From: Clostridia bacterium
GTDB lineage: Bacteria; Bacillota; Clostridia; UBA1381; UBA9506
Assembly (NCBI GenBank): GCA_017546245.1
Contig: JAFYXI010000021.1
Location: 1 to 64,000 of the forward strand
Length of the DNA stretch: 64,000 nucleotides
Direction of reading: 5' to 3'
Under the pieces are notes generated by a model, which worked only from the letters and a program-made list of their open reading frames with translations, had not been told where the DNA came from and did not search any database. The position numbers were made by a program, and so were the translations under genes. Below, piece by piece: positions 19,613-31,909 of this stretch (the stretch's first letter is position 1; each line of letters starts with the position of its first letter).

Positions 19613-20344
19613 TTATATTTCCTGCAAAACTCCAATCAGCACATATCTTGCATCATCATATGAGTATGAGCAGGTTGAAAGCATCACAAATTTATCATCA
19701 GGCGAAAACATATAGTCTGCTTTAAAGGTTGATTTTTTAATTAATTCAGAAACAAAAGTATCTTTATACTCATTTTCGAGCGGCAGTTTACAAATTGGCG
19801 ATGTGCCGTTTACAGTAGCTCCCGCAACAAGCCTTACTTTATATTGTCTGTCAGGTGTTAAAATATACATTTGCTTATGCTCATCAAAATACTGCTGGTT
19901 TGTATATTTTACAAGCGTACCGAACATAGTATTGTTTTTCATATTATGACCGTATATTATCGTGTTGTTGTCAGTAAAATCGCCTTTGTTTAAGCAATCT
20001 GCAAATAATGTGCCCGATGCACTATATGCACCGTCTATTCTTCTGCTTAAATAATAAGAATTATCTTCTGCCTGCACAACAGGATAATTTATAGGTGTTC
20101 CCTCACAATAAATCCACGCTATAATATCGTTATTCTCTTGCTTTAATTCTTTAAAATTAACGCTTATTGGTGCAGTTTGTTCGGGCAATCTTGCGGATAC
20201 AACTTTTTCTGCCACTTTTTCATTATAGTCTTGTTCTTTATTATAGCTGTAAAGCTTATACGAAGAAAAAGCCAATGTTATTACGGCAGCTGTAAAAAGA
20301 ACAGATTTTAAAAATATCAGCAAATGAGTTTTATAATTTTTCAA
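19613..20344 (-). CDS. srtB: Class B sortase
   Basis: A 243-residue membrane-anchored transpeptidase with one N-terminal transmembrane segment (about 9-28) and an extracellular sortase barrel. The catalytic His is in IIYGHNM (H133), Cys in MLSTCSY (C225) and Arg in DDARYVLIG (R233), so all three are present. It would join a sorting-signal protein to peptidoglycan or to a fibre subunit. It is the last gene of the TetR/SipW/TasA operon, 14 bp after the Ser-rich protein gene. The only sorting-like motif seen in the operon is PPLTGD in the product of 28429-29844. Confidence 0.93.
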   Translation of the reverse strand: MKNYKTHLLIFLKSVLFTAAVITLAFSSYKLYSYNKEQDYNEKVAEKVVSARLPEQTAPISVNFKELKQENNDIIAWIYCEGTPINYPVVQAEDNSYYLSRRIDGAYSASGTLFADCLNKGDFTDNNTIIYGHNMKNNTMFGTLVKYTNQQYFDEHKQMYILTPDRQYKVRLVAGATVNGTSPICKLPLENEYKDTFVSELIKKSTFKADYMFSPDDKFVMLSTCSYSYDDARYVLIGVLQEI

Positions 20345-20358
20345 AAAATTACCTCCGA

Positions 20359-21435
20359 CTACTCAGCACTTCCGCCATCAGAAGAACCAGCTGCGGACGA
20401 TGCACCTGAAGAAGACGACTCGCCTCCGACTGATGACGAACCGCTTTTTGATGACGGGCTTTTAGCCGACGAAGTTTCGCCGCCCGACGCAGAACTACTG
20501 CCCGATTCTGAACTATTACCCGATGCGGTTGAACTCTGAGAGGGTGATGAATTGCTATCACTCGCCGATTGCGAAGCCGCGCTTGTTGTTTCGGATTTTT
20601 TACTTGATTCGCTGCTTTTACTGCTATCAGATGACGATGCACTTTCATCAGAACCTGACGAATCTGATTCTTGCGATTTTGATGAAGAGCTTGCTGCCGA
20701 TGCATTTTCGCTGTTTTCTTTTGATGCTTCACCCGAATCGGCGGCTTCTGTTTTATCTTCTGATTCTTCCGGCTTATCAGAAGAATTTTCTGTTTTCTCA
20801 GATGAGTCATCGGTTTTGTCCGAAACTGCTCCGCCCGAAGCGCCAGATGGTTTTTCTGCATTTTTTTCTCCATCAACTGCCGTTTCAGAAGATTTATCCG
20901 TTTTATCATCCTCTTCTGATGTTTCTTCGGGCGGCGGAGTAAATGAATGAATAATATTTCCGCCGCAAAGCTCGTTAATGTTATAATTATCGGGCTTTCC
21001 CCATCGGGGAATAAAGCTTATCGCACAACCTGCAACTGCCTGAATTTTTAATGTTTTTTCACCTTTAAATGCTGTTGTGCAATATTCTTTAACATCTCCT
21101 TCAGGACTTTTTATTTCAATTATACAATATCCCTGCGAAGCAGTTCCGCACGGAGAAAGTGTAAACTCGTGCACTTCTCCCTCTGTTTGAAGACAGGTGT
21201 AAACCGATGAAATCCGGCCATAATTTTTTTCTTTAACATCAATATCCCATACAGCGGCATTCATTGTAAAGCTTTTTGACGTATTACTGCTGAAAAACGC
21301 AAAAGCTGTCGAAACCATCATTGTCATACAGGCCAATATTGCAATTACCGACAATATAATTCTTGATTTAAAAACGCTGTCAGATATTTTTTCGTTTTCT
21401 GAAACTTTTAAATACTTTTCGTATAGTTTTTTCAT
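20359..21435 (-). CDS. SipW-signal-type exported protein with long Ser-rich tail
   Basis: A 358-residue protein if started at ATG 21435, which has AAGGGGGTG in front; the longer frame to 21480 has no such site. It has a cytoplasmic Lys-rich N-terminus, a hydrophobic segment ending STAFAFFSSN in the style of SipW-dependent signals, a TasA-like domain of about 130 residues with Cys residues, then about 180 residues made almost only of Ser, Glu, Asp, Lys, Ala and Gly. The tail resembles a wall-spanning stalk, but no sorting motif follows it. The tail's biased codons create long false open frames on the other strand. Sortase B follows immediately. Confidence 0.78.
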   Translation of the reverse strand: MKKLYEKYLKVSENEKISDSVFKSRIILSVIAILACMTMMVSTAFAFFSSNTSKSFTMNAAVWDIDVKEKNYGRISSVYTCLQTEGEVHEFTLSPCGTASQGYCIIEIKSPEGDVKEYCTTAFKGEKTLKIQAVAGCAISFIPRWGKPDNYNINELCGGNIIHSFTPPPEETSEEDDKTDKSSETAVDGEKNAEKPSGASGGAVSDKTDDSSEKTENSSDKPEESEDKTEAADSGEASKENSENASAASSSSKSQESDSSGSDESASSSDSSKSSESSKKSETTSAASQSASDSNSSPSQSSTASGNSSESGSSSASGGETSSAKSPSSKSGSSSVGGESSSSGASSAAGSSDGGSAE

Positions 21436-21462
21436 CCGGTCACACCCCCTTATAGTTAATTC

Positions 21463-21533
21463 GGCAATCAAAAGGCACAAAACAGCTATGCTTTATGCCC
21501 TTTGATTGCCGCCCGACCCCCGAAAGAGCCGGG
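21463..21533 (-). other. Two stacked hairpins in the 115-bp intergenic leader before the Ser-rich protein gene
   Basis: On the minus strand, a GC-rich hairpin with TTTC loop (21512-21533) is followed by a 15-bp stem with one G-U pair (21463-21477 with 21496-21510). Neither is followed by a T tract, so ordinary termination is unlikely. This may be an mRNA-processing, stabilising or regulatory leader. I do not recognise a known riboswitch. Confidence 0.45.
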
Positions 21534-21550
21534 ACTTGGCAATATAAATA

Positions 21551-22978
21551 TTAGCCTTCTAAGTATAACTCGTCATTTACATAAATTTTAATTTTTTTCG
21601 GATCAGTACCGGATCCATTATCATCCAATTCATTACCCAAAGCTTTTTTTACTTTTTCAGCTACAGCTTCGTTTTTAACATAGAATGTAAATGTACTTAC
21701 ATTTGCATTGTTAGATTCGCTGTTACAGAACCAGCATTCGCCCTGATTTACATTATTGACAAAAGTAATATCATTACCATTTATATAAATAGTTCTTAAA
21801 TTAGCACAACCGCGAAAAGCTTTGTTTTCAATAGTTGTATTGCCTTCAAATGTAACAGTTTCAATCTTTGATGCGCCAAATGCAGTTTCGCCTACATATT
21901 CAACTGTTGCAGGAATTACAATTTCTGTAAGACCAGTTTTCTGGAAGGCATTATCTGCAATAGTTTTAACAGTTGATGAGAAAACTACTTCTTTAAGATT
22001 ATTAGTTGCTCGAAAGGCGCGTGAATCAATTGTTTCAAGACCTTCGTTTAAAGTAACCTTTTCAACCGCTGATGAATTGAATGCCTGACCAAGAGATTTA
22101 ACTGTTGATGCAAGCTTTACTTCTTTAATGTCAGAATTGGTAGAAAAAGCGTAGTTACCGATTGCTTCAATTCCTTCCGGAACAACATACTCGCCAGTTG
22201 TTGCTTCGTAATTTTCTAAGCTGTAAAGAGTAAGTGCGCCGCTTTCTGCATCATAATAAAGCTGTGTACCATCTTCTGATTCAATGATTACTTCATCATC
22301 GTCAATCGGAGGTACTAAACCCTTGTCGTAATCTGTACCGAAGCTATCCTCTTCTGCCTCTACCTGTGTAGCGGATACATTAACGTCAATTTTGATGTTT
22401 CCGTTCATGTAGTCATTGCCTGCTTGTTCATTCATATGTACAGCAAGCGCAAAATAATCGGTAGCTCCGTCAGCAAGTCTGCCGTTTTCTGCAACTCTCT
22501 TATCTGTGCATACTTCAACATCGCCAATCTGAACGCTTGCATAGCTTTCGATTTCAGCCCATGAATCTACGTTTTTAAGATCTTCAGCCTTTGCTCCGTC
22601 AAGAATTGCATACTTTAAAGAACCAACAAGGCCTTCGTCAACAACGTCAAGAAGTATATTGTACTTAAGTGCAAGCGAACCATTGTTTTTAACCGCAAGA
22701 TAAACAATTTCTGTTTTACCCGGCTCCCAGTTTGCTCCGTTGCCTGTTTCAGAAAAGATGTTGCCATCATTGCCGTCAGCAATCGAAACATAAGTACCAT
22801 TTTCAGCCTTGTCCATAAGAAGGTCAACGTCGAGGTTACCCGCTACAATACGGTTGTTTGCGCTGGATGCATTATCTGTAAACCACGCAAAAGTTGTTCC
22901 GAGAAGCATTGCAAAGCAAAGCACTAATGATATTGTGCTGCCAAGCAGTGCTCTCTTGGTTGTTTTGTTGTTTGTCAT
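21551..22978 (-). CDS. TasA-like surface protein with BspA-type leucine-rich repeats
   Basis: A 475-residue protein. Residues 1-45 are a SipW-cognate signal (ALLGSTISLVLCFAMLLG, then TTFAWFTD and AGNLDVDL). Residues about 45-225 are a TasA/camelysin-like beta domain (GNGANWEPGKTEIVYL; AVHMNEQAGNDYMNG). Residues about 260-420 are LRR_5 repeats of the BspA type, with units such as AIGNYAFSTNSDIKEVKL and TIDSRAFRATNNLKEVVF. It is probably exported by Sec, cut by the neighbouring SipW, and assembled into surface fibres that expose the LRR module for binding. It is one of four paralogues with near-identical N-termini. Confidence 0.85.
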   Translation of the reverse strand: MTNNKTTKRALLGSTISLVLCFAMLLGTTFAWFTDNASSANNRIVAGNLDVDLLMDKAENGTYVSIADGNDGNIFSETGNGANWEPGKTEIVYLAVKNNGSLALKYNILLDVVDEGLVGSLKYAILDGAKAEDLKNVDSWAEIESYASVQIGDVEVCTDKRVAENGRLADGATDYFALAVHMNEQAGNDYMNGNIKIDVNVSATQVEAEEDSFGTDYDKGLVPPIDDDEVIIESEDGTQLYYDAESGALTLYSLENYEATTGEYVVPEGIEAIGNYAFSTNSDIKEVKLASTVKSLGQAFNSSAVEKVTLNEGLETIDSRAFRATNNLKEVVFSSTVKTIADNAFQKTGLTEIVIPATVEYVGETAFGASKIETVTFEGNTTIENKAFRGCANLRTIYINGNDITFVNNVNQGECWFCNSESNNANVSTFTFYVKNEAVAEKVKKALGNELDDNGSGTDPKKIKIYVNDELYLEG

Positions 22979-22997
22979 TTTTTTATCTCCTTTTTAA

Positions 22998-24893
22998 TTA
23001 TTTTGCAGTTAAACGGAATGTTTTTGTTGTTTCATCCCAATATGTTTTATAACCTTCGTTTTTGCAAACGAGTTTTGCTTCGTCGCCTTCGGTATAAACA
23101 TAATCTGCATCAGGCTTAAGGTTAAAGCTTGCAAAGTTTGATCTGCCTTCATCTACAGTAAAGGTAATAGTACCAAAGTTGTTAGCAAGGTTAACTGTGT
23201 TGTGCACATTATGTACCGAGAAATGAATCACTCCCGTAATACCATTACCGCCAACGGTTGGTGTTAAACCGCTATCAATGTAAACATCATCTTTAAGCTC
23301 ACCGCCCGTGAGTGTTACAGCCGTATCCCAGCAATAGAAAGCATCGAAATTCGAATTTTCGGCAGAAGCATTACCCGAAATTTCACCGCCGGTCATATTA
23401 AATGTGTTATGGTCTGTAAGACGCATAGCACCCGAGTTGCTTGCAGTATTGCCAACCATTTTAAAATCGCCGCTCATATTGATAACCGAATAAGTACCGA
23501 GATACATTCCGCCTCCTATACCACTAGCTGTATTGTACGCAATTGAGCCGCCGTTGAAGTTATAGGTTGATGAACCATAGCCCCATATTGCGCCGCCGTC
23601 TGTTGAAGCTGTGTTGTGGCTGATTTCGCCGCCGTTCATTGTAAGATTGCAGTTACTTACCATACGGATAGCACCTGCTACACCGTTTGAGCTGTTATAG
23701 CTGATTTTTGTACCTTCGTTAATTGTAATATGTCCGCCGCCCCAGATTGCGCCTGCGTCTGAACGGTTGTAAACAATCTGTGCGCCGTTTAATGTAAGAG
23801 TTGCGCCTATTCTTGTACCGAGGTTAATTGCCAGCGCTCCATCGTTGTTCTGAAGAACTGTATCTTTGTTTAAAACAATATGCGAATTAGCCCCTGCATT
23901 AATTAAATTACCGGTAGCAGTTATACCGCTGTTTGTACTGGTTGACGGATTCGCACTGCGGCTTGCCCATACTGCTCCTCCATCAATTACTACATCTGTA
24001 AGAGTTAATGTGCTTCCGGCAGTTACATTAAATATTGTGCCCGTGTAACCATCTGCACGCTTAATTTCGTATCCTGCACCATTAATGGTTACATCATAAT
24101 CAACGGTATATGTATCCTCTGTGGATATATCGCCTGTAATAACAATGTTTTTATTCTGGTTTGCCAAAGCAGTTCTGAGTTCATCGGCACTCGAAACCGG
24201 ATAATAGTCAAGGGACGCTTCTTTGTCATAATCAGAGCCGAAAGAATCTTCTTCTGCATCTTTCTGAGTTGCAACTACCTTAACATCAATTGTAATACTT
24301 CCGTTCATATACTCGTTGCCGGCTTCTTCTTTCATATGTACAGCAAGCGCAAAGTAGTCTGTGTCTTCAACATTATTTACCTTGCCTTCAAGAACGCCGT
24401 TCGGTGCAGCTGTATGCTGACCTGCCTGAACAAGCTCACTCTGAACACCTTCTGTTCTTATAATATCTGTCCACTTTGTTGCAGCCGCTAAATCACTTGC
24501 TTTAGCTTTATCTAAAAGTGCATATTCAAGTGAACCGATAAGACCCGGGTTGCCGTCTGTAATATCAAGAATTATATTATATTTAAGAGCAAGACTTCCC
24601 TTGTTTCTAACCGCAAGATAAACAATTTCGGTTTTACCGGGTTCCCACTTAATTCCGTTACCGGTTTCAGAGAAAATGTCGCCTGTGCTGCCGGCAATTG
24701 ATTCATAGTTGTTTTGTTCTGTCTTATCCATAAGCAGATCCACATCAAGATTACCTGCTACGATACGGTTGTTTGCGCTGGATGCACTGTCTGTAAACCA
24801 CGCAAACGTTGTGCCGAGAAGCATTGCAAAGCAAAGTACTAATGATATGGTGCTGCCAAGCAAAGCTTTTTTAGTTATTTTGCTGTTTGTCAT
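22998..24893 (-). CDS. TasA-like surface protein with right-handed beta-helix module
   Basis: A 631-residue protein. It has an N-terminal SipW-cognate signal nearly identical to its neighbours, then a TasA-like domain to about residue 220 (KWEPGKTEIVYLAV; MKEEAGNEYMNG). A long parallel beta-helix follows (about 235-600) with repeated units of the kind LTMNGGEISHNTASTDGGA and FNGGSIAYNTASGIGGG, as in polymorphic outer-surface and adhesin proteins. The beta-helix has no visible catalytic polysaccharide-lyase signature, so adhesion is more likely than catalysis. It lies 19 bp before the LRR paralogue gene. Confidence 0.85.
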   Translation of the reverse strand: MTNSKITKKALLGSTISLVLCFAMLLGTTFAWFTDSASSANNRIVAGNLDVDLLMDKTEQNNYESIAGSTGDIFSETGNGIKWEPGKTEIVYLAVRNKGSLALKYNIILDITDGNPGLIGSLEYALLDKAKASDLAAATKWTDIIRTEGVQSELVQAGQHTAAPNGVLEGKVNNVEDTDYFALAVHMKEEAGNEYMNGSITIDVKVVATQKDAEEDSFGSDYDKEASLDYYPVSSADELRTALANQNKNIVITGDISTEDTYTVDYDVTINGAGYEIKRADGYTGTIFNVTAGSTLTLTDVVIDGGAVWASRSANPSTSTNSGITATGNLINAGANSHIVLNKDTVLQNNDGALAINLGTRIGATLTLNGAQIVYNRSDAGAIWGGGHITINEGTKISYNSSNGVAGAIRMVSNCNLTMNGGEISHNTASTDGGAIWGYGSSTYNFNGGSIAYNTASGIGGGMYLGTYSVINMSGDFKMVGNTASNSGAMRLTDHNTFNMTGGEISGNASAENSNFDAFYCWDTAVTLTGGELKDDVYIDSGLTPTVGGNGITGVIHFSVHNVHNTVNLANNFGTITFTVDEGRSNFASFNLKPDADYVYTEGDEAKLVCKNEGYKTYWDETTKTFRLTAK

Positions 24894-24942
24894 TGTTTTT
24901 TCTCCTGATAATATTTATTTTTATATTCAGCTTTTACTGTTT

Positions 24943-26238
24943 TTATTTAAAGGTATAGCTATATGTTTTAACAGTTATATAGTTTCCTGTTTCGCTGTCG
25001 CGCGAACCGTCTTCTGCCTCATAAAGACGAAGCTCAACCGTAAGTGTTGTATTCTCAGGAAGTGCATCATTAAGCTCTAATGCACCGCAAAGGAAGCCTA
25101 TGCCATCATTGCCGTAATCAGAGAGGTCTTTAAGGCTGACAGTAATCGAGTTGCCTAACATTTGACCGATTGCATCAATAAGACGAATTTCTTCATTTGC
25201 GGCAACCGGCAAGCCTTCATTCGGAATTGCAACCCATTTATCATTATTCATGCTGCACCATGCATCGTAATAACCTGCAAGGGCTATGCTGTTCTCGGGA
25301 ATATCCTTATCTACAGAAACAATAAAATCTGCATGCCATGTCTTGTATTCAGACAATTTTACTTCTTCTGCGGACAAAGTCGGTTCAAACTGATATGCAG
25401 CGGCAAGACTTATTTTTCCTAAATCTGCTCCTAATTTGCTATCAGTTGTATCAATCAGCAGGTTTTTACTTAAAACCTCTACACCTTCAGGATTTTTAAT
25501 GGTTGTTGCATCAGAAAGAATTCTTGTGCGCGCAACAGGTTTGCCTGTGTCGTATGCAGCATTCTTGTCATACTGGTTATTAAAGCTGTCGCTTTCGTGA
25601 GTATACTGCGTTGCATAAACATTGATACCAAACTCTATAGAAGGAACATCCGAACCATTATGGTTTGCTTCGTTGCCTACAGTTTCGTCCATATCAACCT
25701 TGATGATAACATACTCAACCTCATCGGTTTCAAGCAGGTCGCTGTCCTTTGCGCCAAGAACATCTGCTGCTTTAAAGGTTGACTTGTTGTCGTATGTCAT
25801 GTTTTCGTTGGTAAAAGCAGTTGTAACATCAGATGCATTTTCTGTCATTATTGATTCAACTGTGAGAATTTCAGAAAGTACTATGTCATCTTCTGTCTTT
25901 GTTTTACCGATAATTTCATCAACAATGTTCATATTAGCTGTATATTTTAAAGCTAACGAACCACTGTTTTTAATTCTTAACGCTACTACCTCTGTATGAC
26001 CAGGCTCCCAGAGACTCTTTTGGAACAGATCGTCTGCACCGTCAAGCTTTGTCCAGTTTGTGCCGTCAAGCGTGTAATCAACCTCAATGTCTAAATTTCC
26101 TGCTTTGATTACGTTGCTGCCTGATACAGCACTGTCTGTAAACCACGCAAATGTGGTTCCGAGAAGCATTGCAAAGCAAAGTACTAATGATATGGCGCTG
26201 CCAAGCAAAGCTCTCTTTGTTGATTTGCTGTTCGTCAT
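24943..26238 (-). CDS. TasA/camelysin-like SipW-dependent surface protein
   Basis: About 431 residues from ATG 26238, which has AGGAGG at 26249-26254; the frame extends to 26373, but that extension overlaps the upstream intergenic region and has no ribosome site. It has a SipW-cognate signal (residues 1-40), a camelysin/TasA-like domain with LWEPGHTEVVALRIKN and MDETVGNEANHNG, and a C-terminal region of about 190 residues ending in mixed beta strands, with no recognised repeat module. It is one of four paralogous fibre-like subunits in the operon. Confidence 0.82.
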   Translation of the reverse strand: MTNSKSTKRALLGSAISLVLCFAMLLGTTFAWFTDSAVSGSNVIKAGNLDIEVDYTLDGTNWTKLDGADDLFQKSLWEPGHTEVVALRIKNSGSLALKYTANMNIVDEIIGKTKTEDDIVLSEILTVESIMTENASDVTTAFTNENMTYDNKSTFKAADVLGAKDSDLLETDEVEYVIIKVDMDETVGNEANHNGSDVPSIEFGINVYATQYTHESDSFNNQYDKNAAYDTGKPVARTRILSDATTIKNPEGVEVLSKNLLIDTTDSKLGADLGKISLAAAYQFEPTLSAEEVKLSEYKTWHADFIVSVDKDIPENSIALAGYYDAWCSMNNDKWVAIPNEGLPVAANEEIRLIDAIGQMLGNSITVSLKDLSDYGNDGIGFLCGALELNDALPENTTLTVELRLYEAEDGSRDSETGNYITVKTYSYTFK

Positions 26239-26323
26239 TTTTGTTTTACCTCCTGTTTTTTTATTTTTGTCAGACGAATATATGTAAACAGCCTTTTGCT
26301 GTTGTTTATAACCAAATTGCATT

Positions 26324-27712
26324 TTATTTTGTATAGTTATAAACGGGAATGGTTTTCTGCTCTTTATCTGCATTAAACCACTTTACATCTGTAAATTTAT
26401 TTTCAGATTCTTTAAAACTGATTTCGTCATTGTCATTTTCAGGATTTACGCTGCCAAGCAATATTCCGACTGCGTCTTTATATTCTTCGGCATTTTTAAT
26501 GGTTATATATTTGATATTACAGTTTGTTATTGTAAGACGCCCCTCTGACATTGTTCCGACAATAACACCTATCGGACCCTGAGCTGTGATGGTAGAATTT
26601 TTAACAGTTATATTATCAATTAAGACATCACCGCCGGTAATTGAGCCAATCAAAAATGCACAGTCATTGCCCTTATCGGTATCTGTTCCAAGATTGAAAT
26701 TGTCAATTGTCAGATTTTTAACCTCTGCTCCATTTGTTGAAGCAAACAGGGCTAATTGCGTTTCTGAATTATCTGCTGTCCGGTTTTTAATAATATGCCC
26801 ACAGCCATCAAAAACTCCGTCAAAAGAATTATCTTTACCATCACCTATACCTGCAAAATCAGGATATTCTGAAAGGTCTATATTGTCTGTAAGCTTTACA
26901 TACACATCAGGATTATTTGCAACATTAGCTTCTTTAAACGTATCGTCTGAATTAACAGCCTGTGTAAATTCTTTAAATTCTTCAATTGTGCCGATAGTTA
27001 CAACGTTCATTTCAGAAGCAGACTTTTTAACAGCTTCATTTTCTGTGTATTCGGCTTTTTTATCATAGTTTTTGCCAAAGCTATCCTCTTCATAAGCAGA
27101 TTGTGTTGCTACAAGCGTAAGGTCTGCAACAATACTGTTTCCCTGAAAATTATTCGCAGCATTATCAGGCATATGTACCGAAACGGCAAAATAATCTTTG
27201 TCATCTTTTTGCTTAAGCTTGCCGTTAGATACAACAGAAATTAAGCCTTCTTTTAGTTTGCCGGTTTTGGCTTTTTGATTATTTTTAATTTCTGCCCAAT
27301 TTTCAGATGAAATATCATCGGCTTTTACATCTTCTAAAACTGCATAATCAAGAACACCTGCAAGCTTGCCCGAAATGTTAAGCTTTATGCTGTATTTAAG
27401 CGCAAGCTCACCTATGTTTTCAACCGCCAGATAAACAATCTCTGTTTTGTCGGGTTCCCAGTTTACATCATCACCGCCATTTGCTTCGGCAAAAATGTCT
27501 CCGTTTGTCTCTGAAATCGAAACATAACTTTCTTTGTCTGCTTTATACATTAAAAGGTCAACATCAAGGTTGCCTGCCAAAATACGGTTATCAGCGCTTG
27601 AAACGCTGTCGATAAGCCAGGCATATGTTGTTCCCAAAAGCATGGTAAAACTTAAAACAAGCGATACTATACCGGTGACAAGTGCAATTTTTGTTGATTT
27701 AAGTTCTGTCAT
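26324..27712 (-). CDS. TasA-like surface protein with GLUG-like repeats
   Basis: A 462-residue protein. It has a SipW-cognate signal (ALVTGIVSLVLSFTMLLG, then TTYAWLID), a TasA-like domain (NWEPDKTEIVYLAVENIG; VHMPDNAANNFQGN) to about residue 225, and a C-terminal part with GLUG/beta-helix character (SFDGVFDGCGHIIKN; NGAEVKNLTIDNFNLG; GRLTITNCNIKYITIKN). It directly follows SipW (13 bp), so it is probably the first substrate made. The N-terminus is the most diverged of the four paralogues. Confidence 0.83.
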   Translation of the reverse strand: MTELKSTKIALVTGIVSLVLSFTMLLGTTYAWLIDSVSSADNRILAGNLDVDLLMYKADKESYVSISETNGDIFAEANGGDDVNWEPDKTEIVYLAVENIGELALKYSIKLNISGKLAGVLDYAVLEDVKADDISSENWAEIKNNQKAKTGKLKEGLISVVSNGKLKQKDDKDYFAVSVHMPDNAANNFQGNSIVADLTLVATQSAYEEDSFGKNYDKKAEYTENEAVKKSASEMNVVTIGTIEEFKEFTQAVNSDDTFKEANVANNPDVYVKLTDNIDLSEYPDFAGIGDGKDNSFDGVFDGCGHIIKNRTADNSETQLALFASTNGAEVKNLTIDNFNLGTDTDKGNDCAFLIGSITGGDVLIDNITVKNSTITAQGPIGVIVGTMSEGRLTITNCNIKYITIKNAEEYKDAVGILLGSVNPENDNDEISFKESENKFTDVKWFNADKEQKTIPVYNYTK

Positions 27713-27725
27713 TTTTACCCCCTAA

Positions 27726-28412
27726 TCATTCGTCTACGGGTTGACCCTCCTGCTTTGAAAGCAATTCTTTAAGCTGATGTAATTCTTTCATCATTTCGGC
27801 AGCCTGTTTGCGTTCTTCTTCAATTTTTTCTCTTTCGGTATTAAGCTCTTCCATTTGTTCTTTTTTATATCTGCGGAAAAGCTTTATGCACATAAGTCCC
27901 TGATATAAAATTAAAAGCAAAAACGGAATAAAGATGCAAAGAAAATAACCAATAGGTTCTTTAAGGAACAGGAAAAATGCTCCCACATTAGGAAGTTTTG
28001 CCACATATTTACCCAATATAAATGAGTATTCTACCGGAACTTCATCATCAACACCGGTTGTTGTACCATATGTAATAAAGGCAGGTTCGCCGGTTGCTGT
28101 TGTTGTTTTCTGGCGGATTTTATGCGTAATGGTTTCGCCGTAATATTCGTCACTTTGTGAGATGAATGCAATTATATCGCCCTCTTTAAGAGTAGCCGGT
28201 GCAACATTTTTTGTAAAAACAATATCTCCTGCATCAAAATCTGTCGCACTCATCGAGTCTGTCCTTACGGTAAACGCTTTAAATCCGAATAAATTTCTGT
28301 TGTTCTGATCAAATGTATTTACCGAAATTATTGTAAATATCATCATAGCAACAGCTACTGCAAAAATAGTCCAGACCAAAGCATTTTTTACTATATTAAG
28401 TGTTTTTTTCAT
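27726..28412 (-). CDS. sipW: SipW-type (ER-type) signal peptidase I
   Basis: A 228-residue membrane protease that removes the signal peptides of TasA-like proteins. It has an N-terminal membrane helix (about 10-31), catalytic Ser in RTDSMSAT (S53), His in ETITHKI (H97) in place of the Lys of bacterial-type enzymes, and Asp in VDDEVP; this Ser-His arrangement defines the ER/SipW type. A second membrane helix lies near 150-175. The last 50 residues form a charged probable coiled coil, which is not part of the usual domain. It is flanked by its putative substrates. Confidence 0.93.
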   Translation of the reverse strand: MKKTLNIVKNALVWTIFAVAVAMMIFTIISVNTFDQNNRNLFGFKAFTVRTDSMSATDFDAGDIVFTKNVAPATLKEGDIIAFISQSDEYYGETITHKIRQKTTTATGEPAFITYGTTTGVDDEVPVEYSFILGKYVAKLPNVGAFFLFLKEPIGYFLCIFIPFLLLILYQGLMCIKLFRRYKKEQMEELNTEREKIEEERKQAAEMMKELHQLKELLSKQEGQPVDE

Positions 28413-28428
28413 TACTTTACCTCTCCTG

Positions 28429-29844
28429 TCAATTAAATTCTCTGTTCGTATTATTCTTTTTCTGCGTTGCTACTGCACACATATCAAAAGACATACTCAT
28501 ATTTTGTGTTTCGTTGCCGCTTTCCTGCGGATAATGAAACTCTGCCGTAAGTATTCGTGTTTCATTAAGCATCAGCTCTGCGCTGTCGCAGTTTTCTCGC
28601 ACAAGTCCTTCTGCTTTGCCGCTGTAGAGCATATTTCCGGTTTCTTTATCAAAGATTTTTACATTCAAAACCTTTGCAAGTCCGCCGCTTAATTTATCAA
28701 AATAAATTTTGTAATATACCGCATCAGAGCCTTCGTTTTCAATAAAGAAATCTTTTCTTACCGTCATTCCCGGCTCAAACAAAAATTCATCCTGCGTAAT
28801 AATCGGTTTGCTGTCGTTTAAATTTATCTCAACCGTTCCGGTTTTAAAAACGTTTTCGTCAACCATTACAATAGAATAAACCAACGCAAAGGTTGTAACG
28901 CACAAGCATATTGCAAGAATTACAATTATTACTATACAGATAGTCAGTTTTTTTATAAGCGCATTTTGTTCTGCTTTTGTTTTGCTTTTCTTTTTCTTAA
29001 AAAGTAAAATTAAAAAAATTACCAAAATCGAAATGCATATTAAAACAATCCACAAAACCGGAGCAGCCGCGTCTCCCGTAAGCGGAGGATTTATAAGCTG
29101 ACCTGTCGGTCTCTGAACTGCTGCAGCGTCGGTGGGAGCTGCTTGTCCTTCTTCCTGCCATTGCTGCGAAGCCTCCGGCTGCATACCAGGCATAGCTGTC
29201 TCACCGTCAGGAGATGCGACCGGTTTGTTTTCGTCCTCTTTAATTGGAGGTATCGTAGCATCGCTGCCACCCGGTGTTATTACCTGATGCTCACCCGAAA
29301 CAGACGGAATAACAGGTTTTATCGGTTTGGCATTATTGCCTGTGTGTCCCGGACGTCCTTCGTCAGCGGTATATGCCCACCACTTAAAATCTGCAACCAA
29401 TTGTTTATTCTGATACTCGTTACCCACACTTGTATCAAGATAGACCGAAATTTTATAAATTAAATCCACGGTTTTGTTTACTGCCGAAATTGAATGTTCT
29501 AAATCGGGCATATCTTTTAGCAATCCGTCATAAAGCGGATTATCTTCACCATTTAAAACAACCTTGCATTTTAATACTTCTGCAAGCTTTTCATGGCCTT
29601 TTCTCACATCGGCAGTAAAATATACGCTAATAGTACCGTTATACGAAACGCTGATGTTGTAAATATTTGTTTCACAGTCGCCCGGAAACATATTGGTTAC
29701 ACTAAAGGGAACACTTTCTTCTGCGTTATTTTTGTATATCGACAAAACATTTTCTTTTGCCAGCGCACTTATTGCAAATACCTGCAACGCTATCAGCAAA
29801 AATGCTGCTGTTCTGAGTATTCTGCAAGCAATGCGATTTTTCAT
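28429..29844 (-). CDS. Two-domain TasA-like membrane protein with internal sorting-like signal
   Basis: About 471 residues from ATG 29844 (a GTG at 29853 is in frame but less well placed). Order: signal peptide (AAFLLIALQVFAISALA), TasA-like domain one (about 30-165, with GNEYQNKQLVADFKWWAYT), Pro-rich linker, PPLTGD followed by a hydrophobic helix and KKKKSK (about 250-290) exactly like a wall-sorting signal, then a second hydrophobic helix (KLTICIVIIVILAICLCV) and TasA-like domain two to the C-terminus (FKTGTVEINLND; FEPGMTVRKDFF). It reads as a fusion of a sortase-type protein and a SipW-type protein. Topology would put both domains outside, joined by a membrane hairpin. It may initiate or anchor the fibre. 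Confidence 0.75.
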   Translation of the reverse strand: MKNRIACRILRTAAFLLIALQVFAISALAKENVLSIYKNNAEESVPFSVTNMFPGDCETNIYNISVSYNGTISVYFTADVRKGHEKLAEVLKCKVVLNGEDNPLYDGLLKDMPDLEHSISAVNKTVDLIYKISVYLDTSVGNEYQNKQLVADFKWWAYTADEGRPGHTGNNAKPIKPVIPSVSGEHQVITPGGSDATIPPIKEDENKPVASPDGETAMPGMQPEASQQWQEEGQAAPTDAAAVQRPTGQLINPPLTGDAAAPVLWIVLICISILVIFLILLFKKKKSKTKAEQNALIKKLTICIVIIVILAICLCVTTFALVYSIVMVDENVFKTGTVEINLNDSKPIITQDEFLFEPGMTVRKDFFIENEGSDAVYYKIYFDKLSGGLAKVLNVKIFDKETGNMLYSGKAEGLVRENCDSAELMLNETRILTAEFHYPQESGNETQNMSMSFDMCAVATQKKNNTNREFN

Positions 29845-29907
29845 ATCTATCACCGCATTTCATTTTAATTTTATAAAAAACAGCATAAAATCTGTCTGTT
29901 AACAGAT

Positions 29908-30474
29908 TTATTGTCCGTTTATATTTATAGTTTTTATAATTCTGTTATACAGATTATCAAGCAACAGCTGTGTTTTTTCACCATCATCCCATACTGCATA
30001 ATCAACAATTGCCGAAAGTGTTGAATATATAAAAATTTCTGCCTGATCGAACGTGCAATTAAAAATTTCCATAAGCTTTTTGGCATAATCGGCATATGAA
30101 TAATTAAAATCCTTCATAGTTTCACGCATTCGTTTGCCGAATACGGGACTAACGGTAATCTGAATTACGCATCTGAGTTCGGTTTTGTATTTATCAATTT
30201 CCTCCAAAAGAATATCAAAGTATTGTTTTGGAGATGCTGTATGCTTTAAGGTAAAAGCAAACAGCTTGTCAACCACCTTCGATAAGCCATATTTTCCGGC
30301 GCTTATCCAAATATCATCCTTGTTATCAAACCAATAATACAGGCTGCTTTGAGCCAGCTTTGCCTCTCTGCACAAATCGCCTATTGAGGCGTTTGCCAAT
30401 CCTTTTTTTAAAAGATACTCCCATGTTGTCGCAATAATTGTTTTTTTCTTGTCGGACATAGTAAAACTGTCCAT
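29908..30474 (-). CDS. TetR-family transcriptional regulator
   Basis: A 188-residue regulator with an N-terminal helix-turn-helix (about residues 24-52: ASIGDLCREAKLAQSSLYYW) and a helical ligand/dimer domain after it. It is the first gene of the leftward surface-protein operon, 63 bp before the next gene. A 16-bp palindrome at 30516-30531, 42 bp before its start codon, is a likely binding site, so it probably represses or tunes its own operon. The start has AAAGGAATG ahead. The region 5' to it, up to the hairpin at 30550, shows no convincing promoter in this orientation. Confidence 0.9.
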   Translation of the reverse strand: MDSFTMSDKKKTIIATTWEYLLKKGLANASIGDLCREAKLAQSSLYYWFDNKDDIWISAGKYGLSKVVDKLFAFTLKHTASPKQYFDILLEEIDKYKTELRCVIQITVSPVFGKRMRETMKDFNYSYADYAKKLMEIFNCTFDQAEIFIYSTLSAIVDYAVWDDGEKTQLLLDNLYNRIIKTININGQ

Positions 30475-30515: not shown

Positions 30516-30531
30516 TGTAATGTTCATTACA
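30516..30531. promoter_or_regulatory. Candidate TetR operator
   Basis: A perfect 7-bp inverted repeat around TT: TGTAATGTTCATTACA. It is 42 bp upstream of the TetR start and outside the putative invertible segment, so it would stay in place and lie inside any leader transcribed leftward through the left site. Binding is inferred. Confidence 0.55.
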
Positions 30532-30549
30532 GAACATAGCAAAAAAATA

Positions 30550-30583
30550 TGCCTGCGACATAATCGAAATTATGTCGCAGGCA
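30550..30583. repeat. Left site of the putative invertible segment (hairpin)
   Basis: A 15-bp perfect stem with CGAA loop. Its inner 18 bp, ACATAATCGAAATTATGT (30558-30575), recur in inverted orientation at 30807-30824. The outer GC-rich arms (TGCCTGCG) are unique to this side. Reading leftward, the stem is followed by TATTTTTTT, so in this orientation it also looks like a terminator insulating TetR. Confidence 0.75.
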
Positions 30584-30629
30584 AAGAGACTTTTTATTTA
30601 AAAAGTTAAATTAAATTTCTTAAAACTGC

Positions 30630-30705
30630 AAAAAAAGGCATAATTATAAGACCGGCTATGTAGATTTTGCTAAACCGGTCTTGTAATTATGTTTATTTTT
30701 TTTGC
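30630..30705. terminator. Bidirectional terminator inside the invertible segment
   Basis: Sixteen-base arms 30640-30655 and 30675-30690 pair with one G-U, with ACCGG/CCGGT at the stem top. TTTATTTTTTTT follows on the plus strand and CCTTTTTTT on the minus strand. It separates the promoter from the far end of the segment in either orientation. Confidence 0.82.
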
Positions 30706-30740
30706 AATTTGCTTTTTTTAAAAAAATATATGTAAAATTA

Positions 30741-30769
30741 TTGACAAAACTTAGCTAACGTGTTATACT
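30741..30769 (+). promoter_or_regulatory. Consensus sigma-A promoter inside the invertible segment
   Basis: TTGACA at 30741-30746, 17-bp spacer, TATACT at 30764-30769, with AT-rich sequence upstream. Expected start is about 30776. Downstream within 60 bases is a hairpin with T tract, so in this orientation it yields only a short RNA. Confidence 0.85.
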
Positions 30770-30775
30770 TATCCA

Positions 30776-30834
30776 GCAATTAAAACTAGTGCAGTATATG
30801 TTTCCCACATAATTTCGATTATGTGGTTTTTTAT
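30776..30834 (+). ncRNA. Possible short RNA from the switch promoter
   Basis: The span from the predicted start of the consensus promoter to the T tract after the hairpin at 30805-30826 is about 55-60 nt. It may be a mere abortive product of the OFF state, or a small RNA marking that orientation. No open frame is in it. Confidence 0.4.
30804..30834 (+). terminator. Right site of the putative invertible segment, also a terminator
   Basis: Stem CCACATAAT/ATTATGTGG with loop TTCG (30805-30826), followed by TTTTTTATT. The inner 18 bp at 30807-30824 are the inverted copy of 30558-30575. The T tract lies outside the repeat and overlaps the stop codon of the recombinase gene. Confidence 0.78.
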
Positions 30835-31670
30835 TGCCTTAAAAGCCCTAATTGCTGTATTTGACGTCGGTGCACATCACCTGTTTCCATAGTATAAATA
30901 CGCGTGGTGTTAATGTTTGAATGCCCCAAAATATCAGCAAGACGTGCAATATCTTTTTGAATGGAATAATATGTTCGTGCAAAAAGATGTCTTAAATTGT
31001 GCGGAAACACCTTTTCTTTAGCTACCCCTGCACTTTTGCATAAAGATTTCATCATTTTCCATATTGTGCTTCTGTCGAGCGGCTTTCCTGATTTTGTAAT
31101 GAAGACCGAACCGCTTGTTATTTTTTGCTCTTTAGCATATTCGGTCAACATTTTGCAAAGCTCTTTAGGCAAAATTACAATCCGCATTTTTCCTTTACAG
31201 CTTATAGTCGCCTTTCTTGCACGCACAGCCTCAATAGTTATAAAAGAAAGCTCAGACACTCTTATTCCGCAGGCACATATTGTCTGCATAAGATAGTAAA
31301 GTCTTTCGTTCTTTTTATTTTTTGCAGCGTTTAGCAGTCTTTCATATTCTGATTTAGTAAGTTCTTTGCTTCTTTCTGCAAAAATTTGCTTTTGAATTTT
31401 TAAAGTTTTTACTTTGCAATCGTACCATTCATTAAAAGTAAAAAAGCTGTTAAGAGAAGATATAACCGAATTTGCACTTGCAGGAGCATAATTTTCTATA
31501 AGATGCTGTTTGTATTTAAGCACAACGCTTTTGTTAATTTCTGCATTACTGCACCATTTCGTAAATGCCCTTATATCACGTATATATTTTTCTAACGTCG
31601 ATAAAGATTTTTCTTCGTCTATTAAATATTCTTTAAAATTTTCTATCATTTTGTTACTGATTTTTTTCAT
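30831..31670 (-). CDS. Tyrosine recombinase (XerC/D-like), probable dedicated invertase
   Basis: A 279-residue site-specific recombinase. It has an N-terminal SAM-like core-binding domain (about 5-95) and a C-terminal catalytic domain with the full set of active residues: R137 in CGIRVSEL, a Lys near 159-161, H224 and R227 in PHNLRHLF, H250 in LGHSNINTT, and nucleophile Y259. It is the size of small invertases and XerC/D-like enzymes, not large phage integrases. AAGGAG precedes ATG 31670. No phage, conjugation or att-tRNA features accompany it. Its stop codon is 6 bp from the right 18-bp site, so it probably flips the adjacent promoter segment; this is inference from context. Confidence 0.92.
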   Translation of the reverse strand: MKKISNKMIENFKEYLIDEEKSLSTLEKYIRDIRAFTKWCSNAEINKSVVLKYKQHLIENYAPASANSVISSLNSFFTFNEWYDCKVKTLKIQKQIFAERSKELTKSEYERLLNAAKNKKNERLYYLMQTICACGIRVSELSFITIEAVRARKATISCKGKMRIVILPKELCKMLTEYAKEQKITSGSVFITKSGKPLDRSTIWKMMKSLCKSAGVAKEKVFPHNLRHLFARTYYSIQKDIARLADILGHSNINTTRIYTMETGDVHRRQIQQLGLLRQ

Positions 31671-31756: not shown

Positions 31757-31909
31757 GAGGAGCTGTCTTGATAATCATTTTTTATAAATATTTATGCACG
31801 AAATGTTGCAGGGAACGCATTAATGCGTTCCGCGGAATGGATAAATCCATTCCCTACAACCAAACCTTGCATAATTATTCGCTATATATGATTATTTAGA
31901 CTGCCCCTC
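31757..31909. repeat. Modular palindromic repeat (MITE-like), copy 2
   Basis: It has the same left end and body as the element at 19462-19589 (GAGCTGTCTTGATAATCATT onward) and the same right inner part. Its end repeats are GAGGAGCTGTC and GACTGCCCCTC. It carries palindrome GGAACGCATTAATGCGTTCC (31812-31831) plus an extra hairpin, GGAATGGATAAATCCATTCC (31834-31853), absent from copy 1. The length difference is due mainly to that added module. Confidence 0.85.

Follow-up and report, generated by a model that had tools for sequence, protein, structure and literature searches.

Invertible promoters are usually seen as mere direction switches, in which the repeats at the segment ends matter to the recombinase only. 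The locus described here raises the question of whether such repeats can also control transcription in a manner that depends on the orientation of the segment between them. The window, i.e. the whole 64,000-nucleotide stretch of gut Clostridia bacterium DNA that was analysed (contig JAFYXI010000021.1), carries two copies of ACATAATCGAAATTATGT, a perfect 18-bp inverted repeat, with 231 bp between them. This 231-bp segment is located between the gene for an Xer-like tyrosine recombinase and a TetR-family gene that heads an operon for surface proteins with SipW-type and sortase functions (Table 1). We consider it likely that the locus works as a phase switch by promoter inversion, and that each 18-bp core doubles as the apex of an OFF-only intrinsic terminator.

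Table 1. Features of the putative switch and its surroundings, numbered by position in the window
Feature	Position	Strand	Basis or remark
Class B sortase, towards the end of the gene run	19613..20344	-	TIGR03064 8e-55
Four more SipW-cognate surface proteins, one with BspA-type LRRs	21551..27712	-	PF12389, PF13306, TIGR04088
SipW-type signal peptidase	27726..28412	-	NF046067 3e-17, TIGR02228 2e-16
SipW-dependent (BsaA/camelysin-like) surface protein	28429..29853	-	PF12389; TIGR04090 weak
TetR-family regulator, heading the operon under the putative switch	29908..30474	-	PF00440 E=4e-7
Operator-like palindrome TGTAATGTTCATTACA, lying between the left site and the start of TetR	30516..30531	.	TGTAAYGNNCRTTACA-like in TetR-target relatives
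T tract of putative left terminator	30541..30549	-	TATTTTTTT on - strand (terminator scan)
Putative left OFF-state terminator hairpin, 15-bp stem	30550..30583	-	T tract 30547-30541 on - strand; OFF-specific in relatives
Left core, target-side (distal)	30558..30575	+	ACATAAT-CGAA-ATTATGT; perfect inverted repeat with right core
Putative invertible segment, 231 bp	30576..30806	.	Cores as boundaries; relatives with either orientation
Internal bidirectional terminator-like hairpin, behind promoter	30636..30694	.	-28.4 (+) and -21.9 (-) kcal/mol; flanked by T-rich sequence on either side
Sigma-70-type promoter, TTGACA-17-TGnTATACT	30741..30769	+	11/12 matches, extended -10
Putative right OFF-state terminator	30805..30832	+	9-bp stem 30805-30826 plus T6 30827-30832; faces OFF promoter, would shield recombinase gene
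Right core, recombinase-side (proximal)	30807..30824	-	Inverted repeat with left core; 7-bp arms kept in relatives
Xer-like tyrosine recombinase, presumed invertase	30831..31670	-	PF00589 E=3e-31

The product of the adjacent recombinase gene contains the catalytic motifs GIRVSEL, PHNLRH, GHSNI and IYT, has XerA/XerD as its relatives in the PDB, and is presumed to be the cognate recombinase of the switch; site and recombinase were found together in about 60 loci. No relative of the recombinase was found in viral contigs, and thus there is no evidence of a phage origin. The genome assembly contains only two exact copies of the 18-bp core, the left and the right one. Sharing of the site with other switches of the same genome was considered and rejected, as the remaining matches all had 3 mismatches (6 places, versus 3 for a control pattern), and the remaining recombinases of this genome, about 30% identical, also count against it. 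Searches of Rfam returned only matches far below the gathering scores. A double palindrome (GGAACGCATTAATGCGTTCCGCGGAATGG...) at 31805-31860, with approximately 31 copies in the genome, is a REP-like or MITE-like dispersed element.

On the other side of the segment, the operon (19613-29853) comprises the TetR regulator, the SipW-type peptidase, several SipW-dependent surface proteins and the class B sortase. Such a gene content suggests that this commensal could switch a biofilm matrix or surface fibres on and off. The TetR protein probably acts on its own operon through TGTAATGTTCATTACA, a putative operator, as this palindrome is conserved in relatives in which a TetR-family gene is the target, and its pattern has one exact match only in the genome. 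The only strong promoter of the segment faces right as assembled, away from the operon, and we infer that the assembled state is OFF. Relatives keep the same promoter inside the segment, with the -10 box usually ending 36-40 bp before the core that it faces in the ON state.

Both 18-bp sites lie inside longer hairpins with T tracts outward of them, as the earlier note on this DNA had read from the letters and as sequence and folding agree. The left hairpin has a perfect stem of TGCCTGCG plus ACATAAT with a 4-nt loop (-24.8 kcal/mol, z -7.8, 0 of 200 shuffles as good) and is followed on the minus strand by TATTTTTTTG, while the stem of the right hairpin consists of CC plus ACATAAT (-13.6 kcal/mol, z -4.2, 1 of 200 shuffles as good). 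The T tracts are on the strand that transcription leaving the segment would use, and the hairpins with their T tracts look intrinsic. The description of the OFF state as closed by strong terminators on both sides holds for the left hairpin; the right one, with 3 G-C pairs, is moderate. A terminator scan of 3.2 kb detected three terminator-like sites, including both site hairpins, versus 2.0 expected in shuffled sequences, and thus is not significant alone. The significance of the site hairpins rests on the folding z-scores (-7.8 and -4.2) and on the comparative test described below.

When the segment was inverted in silico, the left stem, at -24.8 kcal/mol as assembled, weakened to -10.1 kcal/mol, and the right stem, at -13.6 kcal/mol as assembled, to -7.2 kcal/mol. 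The recombinant kept the 7-bp core stem and a loosely paired A-U extension, which, apart from the extension, is the product predicted earlier for a crossover in the common core that swaps the hairpin arms. The predicted weakening of the left hairpin in the ON state was likewise borne out in the fold, and a corresponding loss of termination would be expected to follow. The ON leader, however, retains a weak stem of -10.1 kcal/mol close to the T tract, which counts against the terminator-loss reading.

We propose that the neighbouring tyrosine recombinase would recombine the two 18-bp cores and thereby flip the 231-bp segment. In the OFF state, the promoter would fire at the recombinase gene, and the right hairpin with its T6 would halt the transcript before it becomes antisense to that gene; at the same time the left hairpin, whose two arms belong to the segment and to the target side respectively, would block stray or read-through transcription into the TetR and surface-protein operon. 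As each site receives the opposite end of the segment on flipping, the pairing needed for either long stem is no longer possible in the ON state, and the promoter would face the TetR operon across a 7-bp A-U-rich stem that should terminate no longer, so that expression would rise with the loss of the hairpin. Comparison with 42 related switches indicates that the flip would also make or break the stop signals at the segment ends, so that a surface-coat operon and its regulator would be doubly shut when OFF and open when ON.

The 301-bp region used as a DNA query in the family gave, besides the window itself, short matches only. As this region diverges too fast, relatives were sought with the recombinase protein as a query, which yielded 21 loci in GTDB genomes; 37 genomes of the order gave additional matches. 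The comparative set consisted of 43 non-redundant usable switches of this recombinase family. Orientation was called by the promoter alone, and both states were then written in silico for each locus; among these 43 loci of related species, 11 were assembled ON and 32 OFF.

The 7-bp arms ACATAAT/ATTATGT were present as inverted pairs in about 60 relatives, usually about 20 bp or less from the recombinase stop codon, with a 4-bp spacer that varies across loci (CGAA, TTGC, GGAA, CAAT and others) yet is identical inside each locus. Constant arms with a locus-matched spacer are the pattern that the crossover region of a tyrosine recombinase should show. The core alone is common to both sites, and relatives in the ON and OFF states swap the inner flanks with the outer flanks fixed, which supports a crossover inside the 18-bp core. 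An exchange outside the arms, which would have preserved the full stems and which the earlier note had named as the case against its proposal, is therefore not what the relatives display.

Several further features of the sites were observed in this collection. Ten loci carry three or more cores, with the additional copies in tandem 33-45 bp apart, an arrangement that could give rise to more than two states or to a loss of DNA through direct-repeat recombination. In four genomes with paralogous switches, the arms were the same and the 4-bp spacers mostly different, and the different spacers would prevent paralogous segments from recombining together. Six loci have a contig end 0-12 nt beyond a core, which fits mixed orientations in the sample, and near-identical paralogues could break contigs likewise.

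For comparison of the two states, the energy of the stem alone at the target-side site was scored, an earlier terminator score over windows of up to 110 nt having been discarded because unrelated upstream hairpins contributed energy. Loci were classed by the presence (18 loci) or absence (25 loci) of a T tract within 28 nt of the target-side core, a class that was defined after looking at some of the loci; the OFF bias holds under five definitions of the T tract. Where a T tract was present (18 loci), the median stem energy was -18.9 kcal/mol in OFF and -9.8 kcal/mol in ON (Wilcoxon p=7e-4), and the OFF stem was stronger in 15 and weaker in 1. With segment ends swapped in from other loci as a control, OFF had a mean z of -2.6 and ON one of -0.1. 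Where the T tract was lacking (25 loci), OFF and ON stems showed no difference (p=0.73), and the two classes differed from each other (p=6e-5). At the recombinase-side site, where 34 of the 43 relatives have a T tract, the OFF stem was stronger in 21 of the T-tract loci and the ON stem in 5 (p=4e-4).

These results bear on whether the long stems could have arisen without any function, by hairpin-templated (template-switch) repair that perfects palindromes in the predominant orientation. OFF is indeed the commoner assembled state (32/43), as such an origin would have it. It predicts, however, the same bias in loci without a T tract, where there is none, and long stems as assembled in ON loci. 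Five T-tract loci were assembled ON, and in all of them the full stem is absent as assembled and is gained by the in-silico flip to OFF, for example from -5.6 to -21.8 kcal/mol in locus L021 and from -10.0 to -25.9 kcal/mol in L022. We thus regard a purely mutational origin as hardly credible.

The arms outside the core were then compared between loci for compensatory change. A set of 13 loci with extended arms, picked out in part by eye, had the nine pairs beyond the core formed in 88% of cells in the OFF state, and cells changed on both sides numbered 38 versus 12.5 in shuffles (0/500); in the ON state of the same 13 loci, pairing was 47.9% versus 47.5% in shuffles. When all 18 T-tract loci were taken unselected, pairing was 74.1% versus 58.0% in shuffles (0/2000) in OFF and 53.1% versus 50.9% in ON. 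In the clade of ten loci to which the window belongs, OFF pairing was 80% versus 61% (0/500). The arms thus vary in sequence and pair solely in the OFF state, and solely before a T tract, which we take as evidence of selection for an OFF-only terminator and which supports the view that the extended stems are OFF-specific in evolution.

Long palindromes might instead serve recombination itself, by offering extra contacts to the recombinase or by extruding as cruciforms, and so bias the switch to one orientation. Bases adjacent to the core do pair more than expected in loci without a T tract (59% versus 49% in shuffles), alike in both orientations, and recombinase recognition therefore probably reaches 2-3 bp beyond the 7-bp arm. 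The long arms, however, are not conserved in sequence among loci with the same core, accompany the T tract on the transcript side, and have no OFF bias where the T tract is missing. A role in recombination as the explanation of the long stems is accordingly considered very unlikely.

The OFF-stem effect is concentrated in the window's own clade, where the OFF stem was stronger in 10 of 10 loci (p=0.001). The 8 T-tract loci outside this clade were mixed, with 4 clear, 1 reversed and 3 near zero (p=0.055), and thus the effect is not universal in the recombinase family. The loci share a phylogeny, for which a tree was made, and are not independent in these comparisons.

A further reading is that of an ordinary invertible promoter, in which direction sets the state, the internal hairpin insulates, and the extended stems are incidental or redundant with a negligible effect on expression. 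The internal hairpin, which is absent from the earlier note, is strong and bidirectional, and a hairpin of this AGACC..GGTCT type lies behind the promoter in nearly all of the 43 relatives; in addition, 25 of the 43 have no T tract at the target-side site. As the operon is already insulated by the internal hairpin, the left terminator may be redundant. Against this reading, the arms have diverged in sequence and yet remain complementary in the OFF arrangement alone, and at T-tract sites alone, which implies that selection acts on the hairpin itself, and we consider it unlikely that direction alone accounts for the switch. With site hairpins acting as OFF-only terminators, the internal hairpin shares the insulating role with them. 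The stem of the internal hairpin is conserved in sequence beyond the need of a plain terminator, and it may be a binding site or play a part in recombination.

Of the 43 loci, 14 have a TetR-family gene as the target, and the T tract was present in 12 of these 14 versus 6 of the 29 others (Fisher p=1e-4, with kinship ignored). The most likely reason for this excess is that leaky expression has greater consequences when the gene is regulatory than when it is structural; with a regulator such as TetR as the target, even a small leak would matter. We lean, by a little, towards the view that gut Clostridia share a conserved class of switches whose cores are built to act, at either end, as intrinsic terminators in the OFF state only, and that regulators as targets favour this class. 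A single crossover in such a class would turn the promoter, remove the stop before the target and remove the stop before the recombinase gene.

If the repeats are also selected as state-dependent terminators, control of leak in the OFF state would be written into the recombination sites themselves. OFF and ON would then be readable in sequence by a second signal besides the promoter and independent of it, and the design would offer a compact self-insulating switch part. The idea can be tested over dozens of natural switches with diverged arms.

Among known systems, the Rho-dependent terminator that acts phase-variably on fimE in E. coli fim (Joyce and Dorman 2002; Hinde et al. 2005, both as cited in PMC2784873) resembles the present case in that, as described there, inversion of a promoter also alters termination at the segment end. 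It differs in that the fim terminator is Rho-dependent and acts on the transcript of the recombinase gene fimE, whereas the hairpins here look intrinsic, derive from the recombination sites and stand before the target operon. The flg (PMC7446863) and cmr (PMC8844915) elements of C. difficile are likewise clostridial invertible elements, and flg also acts by termination; however, flg uses Rho in the OFF mRNA and cmr modulates a promoter, and their sites and recombinase differ from those described here. The Vpma terminators of Mycoplasma were considered as a precedent and set aside, being ordinary gene-end terminators.

A study of invertons in gut Clostridia (PMC11892184) describes inverton group 139, linked with tyrosine recombinase group 35, for which inversion was measured and terminators were raised as future work. 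These invertons resemble the present switch in being short, occurring in Clostridia and being tightly linked to a neighbouring tyrosine recombinase, and possibly belong to the same family. Site-borne terminators are not described in the main text of that study or of a genome-wide study of inversions (PMC5903667). In the open literature, most subscription papers being outside the search, no inverted promoter with intrinsic terminators from both recombination sites was found.

The closest precedent is the cwpV switch (Cdi1) of Clostridioides difficile, inverted by the tyrosine recombinase RecV, for which an intrinsic terminator at the junction of repeat and segment was proposed to exist in the OFF state only (Emerson et al. 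2009, PMC2784873). The suggestion that such switch logic had not been described was therefore half right. Both systems involve inversion by a tyrosine recombinase upstream of a surface-protein gene in a member of the Clostridia, with an OFF-only junction terminator, proposed for cwpV and predicted in the present case. In cwpV, the state is set by termination alone and the promoter lies beyond the inverted segment (PMC2784873), whereas here the promoter is inside the segment and flips with it; moreover, the recombination core here is the hairpin apex, and OFF-only hairpins occur at both ends. What is new is thus that an inverted promoter is combined with putative terminators that would form and be lost at either end of the segment, a combination conserved within a single clade, and the termination principle itself has its precedent in cwpV. 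If the proposal holds, that principle would extend from one C. difficile locus to a widespread family of switches in commensals.
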